Assembly: GCF_000024605.1 (NCBI RefSeq)
Contig: NC_013385.1
Coordinates: 372,001 to 436,000, forward strand
Direction of reading: 5' to 3'
Length of the DNA stretch: 64,000 nt
Source: Ammonifex degensii KC4
GTDB lineage: Bacteria; Bacillota; Desulfotomaculia; Desulfotomaculales; Ammonificaceae
In this document: in pieces, positions 59,578 to 61,166 of the stretch
Layout of the letters: each line of letters opens with the position of its first letter
Numbering within the stretch: the stretch's first letter is position 1
Program-made: the position numbers and the translations under genes
The notes under the pieces: model-generated
What the model was told of the DNA's origin: nothing
The model's database searches: none
Seen by the model: the letters and a program-made list of their open reading frames with translations, nothing else

Positions 59578-59968
59578 CCCCAGCCTCCTTTTCTTTTTTG
59601 CGCGCCAGGTAATCCTCGATCGCTTTATGCAGGGCGTCTGCTCCGAGGTTGGAGCAGTGAAGTTTCTGTTTCGGTAAGCCTTCCAGGGCTTCCGCGACGT
59701 CCTTATTCGTGATTTTAAGTGCCTCCGTAATATGCTTGCCCTTGGCCATCTCGCTGATCATGCTGGCAACGGCGATCGCTGCGGCGCAACCGAAGGTCTG
59801 AAACTTGATTTCCGCGATCCGGTCTTCCTTGACCTTGATGTAAAAGGTCATTACATCCCCGCAGGCAGGGTTGCCCACCTCGCCGACACCGTCGGCGTCC
59901 TCAATGACGCCCACGTTGCGTGGGTGTAAAAAGTGCTCCATTACCTTAGCGCTGTACACCCTGGCCAC
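59546..59968 (-). CDS. NifU/IscU-like Fe-S cluster scaffold
   Basis: 140 residues of the IscU fold with the three cluster Cys in 'GNPACGDVM', '[15 protein letters not shown]' and '[16 protein letters not shown]'. It should assemble [2Fe-2S] or [4Fe-4S] clusters and pass them on, for example to NadA. It overlaps the NifS-like gene by 23 bp and thi4 by 32 bp. Alternative start a few codons later (MEHFLHPRN) is possible. Confidence 0.92.
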
Positions 59969-61166
59969 CTCCCGAAGGTTGTTTGCTTGCCTGCGCGTGC
60001 TTCGCCTTATGGTAGAGGGGCGACATTTCTCGCAGCCGCTGCACCACTGGCGGCAGGACCTCGAGCACCTGGTCCACGTCCTTTTCGGTGTTGTGGATGC
60101 CCAGGGTGAATACCAGTGAGCCCTGGGCGGTGGCTGCGCTTATCCCCATAGCCAGCATTACGTGGGAGACCTTTAAGCTACGGGAAACACAGGCCGAGCC
60201 GCTGGAAATCTTGATGCCTGCCATATCCATAAAGAGGAGCATTGACTCGCCCTCGACATACTCGATGGCCACACTGACGTTATTGGGTAAGCGCTGGTGG
60301 GGATGCCCGAGGAGGATGGTATCGGGAATGCGTTTAGGCAACTCCTCGATCAGACGGTCGCGCAAAGCCTGCAGGTGCTGGATGCGGGAGTTCATTTCTT
60401 TTTTGGCGATCGCAGCAGCTACACCCATTCCAACAATTGCGGGTACGTTTTCCGTGCCTGCCCGGAGCCCCCGCTCCTGGATTCCTCCGTCAAGCAGCGG
60501 CTGGATCCGGACCCCTTTCCGGATGTAGAGGGCAGCTGCACCTTTGGGACCGTAAAAGGTATTGGCGGAAAGGGTTAAAAGATCCACGTTCAACTCCTCT
60601 ACGTTGACCGGGATCAGTCCCGCTGTGGCCACGGCGTCGGTATGGAAAAGGACGTTTCTTTCGCGACAGATGCGCCCGATTTCAGCGATGGGCTGGATCG
60701 TACCTATTTCGTTGTTGGCGTGCATCACTGACACAAGGATGGTGTCGGGCCGGAGCGCCTTTTCTACATCTGCCGGGTTTACCATCCCGTACCGGTCAAC
60801 CGGTAGGCGGGTTACTTCGAACCCCCAACGCTCCAGCGTTTTGGCGCAGTGCATAATGGAAAAGTGCTCTATCGAACTAATGATGATATGTTTGCCCCGG
60901 TTCTCGTGGGCCCAAGCGATGCCTTTGAGCGCAAAGTTGTTGGCCTCGGTTCCGCAGGAGGTGAAGATTATTTCCTCCGGTGCTGCTCCGATCAAGTCGG
61001 CCACCTGTGCCCGCGCCTTCTCCAGCGCTTCCCGGGCTTTTTCCCCCAGTTCGTGGATGCTGGAGGGATTACCCCAGTGCTCTGTAAAGTAGGGAAGCAT
61101 CGCCTCGTAAACCTCCGGGAGTACCGGGGCCGCGGCAGCATAATCGAGATAGACCAAGAAAAACAA
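59946..61166 (-). CDS. NifS/IscS-like protein lacking the PLP Schiff-base lysine
   Basis: 406 residues of the class V aminotransferase-like cysteine desulfurase family: '[18 protein letters not shown]', '[16 protein letters not shown]', '[12 protein letters not shown]', '[13 protein letters not shown]' and the mobile-loop Cys in '[13 protein letters not shown]'. The invariant (S)xHK(x)xGPKG motif reads '[11 protein letters not shown]' (about residues 200-209), so the lysine that binds PLP is Thr203, and the nearby Gln of DAxQ is Ala. It should not form an internal aldimine and may not be a desulfurase. Loss of this lysine (to Asp) is known for Archaeoglobus IscS, which still helps assembly on IscU. 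The gene is coupled to the scaffold gene. Confidence 0.88.

Follow-up and report, generated by a model that had tools for sequence, protein, structure and literature searches.

A NifS-like protein of Ammonifex degensii KC4 that lacks the Schiff-base lysine and probably serves Fe-S cluster building from sulfur not derived from cysteine

The window analysed here, i.e. the whole stretch of 64,000 nucleotides from Ammonifex degensii KC4, encodes a NifS/IscS-like protein that has lost the PLP-anchoring lysine together with the glutamine and the arginine of the substrate site, and that has kept the mobile-loop cysteine and an adjoining NifU scaffold. The sequence gives good support to the view that desulfurase chemistry has been lost, and the protein probably takes part in the building of Fe-S clusters from sulfur which does not originate from cysteine. 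The gene and the codons at the decisive positions are as follows:

59946..61166, minus strand: Lys-less NifS/IscS-like protein, 406 aa, TTG start (open reading frame list and profile match)
60558..60560, minus strand: ACC codon for Thr203, at the position of the Schiff-base lysine (letters read)
60627..60629, minus strand: GCC codon for Ala180, at the position of the glutamine (letters read)
60111..60113, minus strand: GTA codon for Val352, at the position of the substrate-carboxylate arginine (letters read and alignment)
60189..60191, minus strand: TGT codon for the mobile-loop Cys326

These codons bear out the preliminary description of this DNA, which had reported a threonine in place of the lysine and an alanine in place of the glutamine, and which had listed the loop cysteine, His101 and Asp177 as retained; Cys326, His101, Asp177 and also Asn152 are indeed present. 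The losses exceed those described before, as Val352 additionally replaces the carboxylate arginine, and the position of the histidine neighbouring the Schiff-base lysine reads Asn202. The protein nevertheless resembles the NifS/IscS cysteine desulfurases (TIGR03402) in fold, length, loop cysteine and NifU partner, and differs from them in lacking the lysine, glutamine and arginine of the catalytic and substrate site. It scores 537.6 bits against the NCBIfam cysteine desulfurase NifS profile TIGR03402 (cut-off 530.75), the absent lysine notwithstanding; its predicted model (pLDDT 89) has a class V aminotransferase fold matching IscS/NFS1 structures, with the mobile loop as the segment of lowest confidence, as expected for such a loop; and the C-terminal LRxMSPLY end, which docks NifU, is retained. 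Automatic annotation based on TIGR03402 is that of a cysteine desulfurase and hides the apparent absence of this activity. A threonine at the lysine position was likewise read in four relatives of the same family (G002, G004, G005 and G006), and dN/dS of the gene amounts to 0.14 in the comparison with G002 and to 0.05 in that with G004, where synonymous sites are near saturation. Because the threonine is shared by these relatives and dN/dS is low, both sequencing error and decay are excluded; the gene is under purifying selection.

The same losses recur in a wider set of proteins. The genome-contig loci compared are the best 80 of a length-limited list found with the window protein, which do not amount to a census. 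The alignment comprised 112 locus rows plus Archaeoglobus fulgidus IscS, after removal of the duplicate L006 and of rows with fewer than 300 aligned residues (except L009 and L010). The lysine is present in 91 rows and absent from 21, where it is replaced by Gln (10 rows), Thr (5), Ser (2) or, once each, Ala, Pro, Arg and Asn. All 21 Lys-less rows have also lost Gln180 (20 Ala, 1 Ser), and none of the 20 that are readable at position 352 has an arginine there (10 Val, 10 Leu); in normal rows, lysine is found in 88/88, glutamine in 87/88 and arginine in 87/88. Cys326, His101, Asp177 and Asn152 each occur in 21 out of 21 Lys-less rows; 18 of these rows lack His202 and 8 lack Ser200, and further marks of the clade are a change from Glu to Lys at position 332 (17/21) and from Ala to Ser at position 103 (20/21). 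Asn, Gln and Arg are described, in part of PMC3343029, as the set which recognises the cysteine carboxylate and as stringently conserved in desulfurases, and a crystal structure covered in a section of PMC5426080 has the carboxylate of alanine held by the conserved arginine and an asparagine. Given these roles, the combined loss of Lys, Gln and Arg means that the whole cysteine site except the asparagine is gone, which is more than the loss of one residue. The earlier view that this is not an ordinary cysteine desulfurase is supported: the three residues are lost jointly and clade-wide, and no lysine common to all readable Lys-less rows offers itself as a replacement. Among 398 genomes of the phylum, a DNA pattern for the peptide DAVA...YGP, which misses other forms, was detected in four, three with Lys-less copies (the window genome, G289 and G335) and one with the lysine (G199). 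As a separate observation, the Lys-bearing NifS of L027, outside the clade, has Thr for the glutamine and Leu for the carboxylate arginine and adjoins a normal copy.

In a first tree of these rows, the 21 Lys-less sequences form a 24-row clade (SH-aLRT 99) with three Lys-bearing ones (L046, L047, L059) that have neither the glutamine nor the arginine, so that in these the substrate site has been lost with the lysine still present. A second tree, with rows added and 30 normal rows excluded, recovered a corresponding clade of 27 rows (23 Lys-less, 4 with lysine; SH-aLRT 99). By the labels of the first tree, the clade comprises rows of the window's family and of Desulfobacterota, Chloroflexota, Nitrospirota and Omnitrophota, with single rows labelled Myxococcota, Pseudomonadota and Actinomycetota. 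A. fulgidus IscS stands apart from this clade among archaeal Lys-bearing rows in the first tree, and in the second it pairs with a G289 copy carrying Asn-Asp at the His-Lys positions (support 98), among Lys-bearing, mostly archaeal rows. A single Lys-less clade that includes A. fulgidus was not rejected by the AU test (p 0.48 for the first tree, p 0.22 for the second), and one loss or several are therefore both compatible with the data.

The gene lies in a minus-strand operon of five tightly packed genes in the order rrf2-nadA-nifS-nifU-thi4. The first two overlap by 20 bases, nadA and nifS are 32 bases apart, and nifS/nifU and nifU/thi4 overlap by 23 and 32 bases, respectively. Its other members are:

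62154..62618, minus strand: Rrf2-family regulator with Cys 92, 99, 104 and 105 (profile match)
61199..62173, minus strand: quinolinate synthase NadA, one of two nadA copies in the genome
59546..59968, minus strand: NifU/IscU-type scaffold (NifU_N), 140 aa, TIGR03419 195.4 bits (cut-off 187.9)
58759..59577, minus strand: His-type Thi4, 272 aa, TIGR00292 (sulfide-dependent ADP-thiazole synthase) 337.0 bits (cut-off 148.3)

The cluster ligands of NifU (Cys36, Asp38, Cys61, Cys105) are intact, and His104 is also kept. The spacing of the four Rrf2 cysteines resembles that of the IscR ligands. The sulfur-donor position of Thi4 is occupied by His159 in the motif GLHVDP, aligned to the histidine of 4Y4M, and not by a cysteine; Thi4 proteins of this type use sulfide, as stated in an excerpt of PMC8454699. 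Neither rrf2 nor nadA was part of the module described previously, and both are members of the operon. This nadA is an extra copy, since the second one (C1:1873598-1874476) sits beside nadB in a putative operon with panD and nadB; G002 and G004 have two NadA genes, too. NAD is a substrate of Thi4, which, we infer, may be a reason for finding nadA and thi4 in one operon.

A look for clades with a residue other than lysine next to nifU and thi4 had been suggested beforehand. Of the 16 named Lys-less loci, 12 have nifU within 1.5 kb (none was found in L038, L042, L044 and L045), and thi4 accompanies the gene in the window's family only. The proposed sulfur module of nifS, nifU and thi4 stands for nifU, which adjoins nifS and is the only NifU_N gene of the genome, and is restricted for thi4, which overlaps nifU in the window and adjoins it in G002, G004 and G005. 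Outside the family, the locus stretches examined contained no thi4 at any of 16 Lys-less loci. Even in the closest relative, G002, thi4 looks broken, its match being reduced to two short fragments that are followed by a transposase. Several other genes were noted around the operon. Upstream of rrf2 are a 103-aa Cys-rich protein at 62713-63024 (CTGCKEE...CPRCG), which has no family match and is 65% conserved in G002, and a MOSC-domain protein at 63069-63587; other MOSC genes were noted at three Lys-less loci (L037, L094, L179) and close to normal copies in L061 and L097. An ISLre2-family transposase (57153-58610) lies directly downstream of thi4, and in G002 the thi4 that looks broken is succeeded by an open reading frame of similar size. 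The region 55644-57036, with a putative tyrosine-recombinase-like integrase (55644-56888) near a tRNA gene (56965-57036), resembles the end of an integrated element.

Outside the window's family, the recurrent neighbour of the Lys-less genes is tusA. In a first count, 6 of 16 Lys-less loci, 2 of 3 Lys-bearing loci of the clade and 0 of 61 other loci had a TusA at a distance of up to 3 kb, with a query profile built partly from the TusAs of the same loci; an outside TusA query (from G002) returned the same 8 loci, and the window genome's own TusA returned none. When the Pfam TusA profile was applied to whole genomes, 10 of the 19 Lys-less copies, from 18 genomes outside the family, had TusA within 3 kb, versus 0 of 26 normal copies from mostly the same genomes (Fisher p 2.9e-5, a value that ignores relatedness, the counts not being independent). 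The other 9 copies are without a nearby TusA, some of them on short contigs, and the five genomes of the window's family that have the Lys-less gene show no TusA near it, which brings the total to 10 of 24; a Lys-bearing member of the clade, in G455, has TusA nearby as well. Examples of this arrangement are the operon tusA-nifS-nifU-nadA-MOSC of G456 and the operon tusA-dsrE-nifS-nifU of G289 (L178, C1:2163034-2164794), whose NifS has an A. fulgidus-like Asn-Asp for His-Lys and a glutamate at the arginine position. Other neighbours proved less distinctive: DsrE adjoins 1 of 19 Lys-less copies, and a normal copy in G335 has it as a neighbour, too; NadA, which adjoins the Lys-less gene in G000 (the window genome), G002, G004, G006, G444 and G456, is shared by the normal copies L029 and L107. 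Sulfide as the direct donor, as proposed in the preliminary description, is one possibility. In other lineages, the neighbourhood of TusA, a sulfane-sulfur carrier, points to persulfide supply; with TusA near none of the five family genes, this support is confined to those lineages. One IscS dimer can accommodate TusA and IscU at the same time, as reported in PMC11302665.

Based on these observations we propose, with even confidence for and against, that the protein is a non-desulfurating NifU partner of the NifS fold, whose loop cysteine accepts or ligates sulfur from sources other than cysteine, i.e. sulfide or sulfane-sulfur carriers. Without the PLP-anchoring lysine and the carboxylate-recognising glutamine and arginine, the protein would obtain no sulfur from cysteine. 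In the lineages with TusA the loop cysteine would receive a persulfide from TusA-type carriers, and in the window's family, with no TusA in the locus, it would receive sulfide or a persulfide derived from polysulfide. It would then present this sulfur at the NifU cluster site or act there as a transient ligand, and the resulting clusters might serve at least the neighbouring NadA, under the control of an Rrf2-type cluster sensor. The source of the sulfur, every step of its transfer, the client proteins and the role of Thi4 in this scheme are inferred.

The Lys-less kind of protein as such is already known, from A. fulgidus and Methanosarcina acetivorans, and the former is the closest parallel to the window protein. 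The best-ranked solved fold for the predicted model is 4HVK, A. fulgidus IscS, which has no desulfurase activity and supplies a cysteine ligand to the IscU cluster without being the sulfur source, according to portions of PMC7585200; the parallel drawn in the preliminary description is well founded in this respect. In A. fulgidus IscS (4EB5, 4HVK; D199) lysine, histidine, glutamine and arginine are replaced as well (Ala for Gln, Asn-Asp for His-Lys, Leu for the carboxylate Arg) and the loop cysteine is kept, and just as that protein works with IscU, the window NifS adjoins a NifU whose ligands appear intact. Unlike A. fulgidus IscS, with its aspartate at the lysine position, the window's clade has mostly threonine or glutamine there, and the two fall separately in both trees, with a single clade not rejected. 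The chief rival to the reading proposed above follows from this parallel: the loop cysteine would never carry sulfur and would complete or protect a NifU cluster made from free sulfide and iron. The shared set of losses, the fold match and the low model confidence of the loop, as a mobile loop would have, all speak for it, and the present data are compatible with it as well as with a loop cysteine that passes sulfur on. It leaves unexplained, however, why TusA accompanies 10 of the 19 Lys-less copies, among them the A. fulgidus-like copy of G289, and we consider it possible but less likely than the reading proposed above.

That PLP is kept non-covalently for some other chemistry, on a substrate other than cysteine, seems improbable. 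PLP enzymes without the lysine exist, His101, Asp177 and Asn152 are invariant, and with the first two of these in place PLP may still bind; the Lys-less A. fulgidus protein 4EB5 is drawn with PLP in a part of PMC9769115. At least seven residue types (Q, T, S, A, P, R, N) occur at the lysine position, however, and together with the losses of His202 and Ser200 this does not have the look of a re-tooled active site. We give still less credit to a relic that is drifting towards loss and is held only by its place in the operon. The gene is absent from another genome of the genus (G001) and the operon's thi4 looks broken in G002, but a pseudogene is rejected by dN/dS values of 0.05-0.14, and the loop cysteine, the docking end and the partner are kept across phyla. 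Least probable of all is a desulfurase in which a different lysine forms the Schiff base, since the candidates, K332 by the loop (17/21 Lys-less versus 3/88 normal rows) and K81 (19/20 readable Lys-less rows but also 40/88 normal ones), are not common to all readable Lys-less rows, and the carboxylate arginine and the glutamine are gone, too.

The A. degensii genome (2.157 Mb, 2 contigs, 99.59% complete) was found to contain no cysteine-desulfurase-type protein other than the window protein among its five PF00266 matches; the remaining four are a putative alanine-glyoxylate-type aminotransferase and putative AspC-type, SelA and HisC proteins. With all five matches examined in an assembly of this quality, a second desulfurase missed through poor assembly is ruled out for this genome. 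It encodes SufB, MnmA, one NifU_N gene (beside nifS), two NadA and two TusA, the latter far from the operon and one of them beside a putative YedE-like transporter. G001, of the same genus and 99% complete, also has SufB and MnmA, and yielded neither a NifS of the window type at E 1e-60 nor NifU_N; as it has SufB and MnmA without the module, the module is dispensable and not the sole carrier of the cell's sulfur economy. No iscS remnant beside mnmA (best E 0.28 and above, or no match) was detected in G000, G001 and G003, and the MnmA type did not separate the genomes, the CxxC motif being present in 4 of 4 MnmA sequences read. From these sequences, members of the window's genus seem to do without an ordinary cysteine desulfurase.

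Elsewhere in the family, G002 and G004 each have a Lys-less and a normal Lys-bearing copy (in G002 the latter lies beside mnmA), only the Lys-less copy was seen in G005 (80% complete), and G006 has a second copy whose lysine position is unread. Of the 5 family genomes with the Lys-less NifS, 4 have NifU_N (in G006 the contig breaks off within the gene), and the 3 family genomes that lack this NifS have none. Elsewhere the two kinds occur together: at least one copy with the lysine was read in 15 of the 16 named genomes that carry a Lys-less one, which speaks for a distinct function of the latter. In the exception, G456 (a genome of unstated completeness), two Lys-less copies were the sole matches at E 1e-40. 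A similar coexistence is described for M. acetivorans, whose IscS1 is reported to be without the catalytic lysine, like the window protein, and which, unlike A. degensii, has further IscS copies with activity (likened here by the description in parts of PMC7585200). Methanococcus maripaludis, with SufBC, feeds Fe-S assembly by sulfide and without a cysteine desulfurase, according to the same parts of PMC7585200. A. degensii resembles it in having SufB and no normal cysteine desulfurase that we could find, but keeps a Lys-less NifS and a NifU, whereas M. maripaludis is described there as being without IscSU altogether. To the known Lys-less proteins the present analysis adds a clade from bacteria, the finding that Lys, Gln and Arg are lost together, the linkage with TusA and a genome in which no normal desulfurase was found. 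A search of CC-licensed PMC papers yielded no description of such a clade among bacteria, a result of limited weight.

In bacteria, cysteine desulfurases are usually regarded as the point at which sulfur enters Fe-S clusters, tRNA thiolation and thiamine. Here, a near-complete genome apparently without a working desulfurase has been found, in which a dismantled NifS is joined to NifU, NadA and a sulfide-type Thi4, and a supply of sulfur that is free of desulfurases thereby becomes testable in one five-gene operon. The recurrent linkage with TusA suggests that the known flow of sulfur from IscS to TusA can run backwards. We put forward tentatively, and with somewhat less than even confidence, that the clade, sparse but spread widely among bacteria, represents a cysteine-independent sulfur port, which retains the loop cysteine and the NifU dock and is loaded either by TusA carriers in such a reversed transfer or by sulfide, and that the window's genus takes this to its extreme. 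If this reading is true, A. degensii would be a free-living bacterium that possesses MnmA, SufB and NifU and is entirely devoid of cysteine desulfurases.
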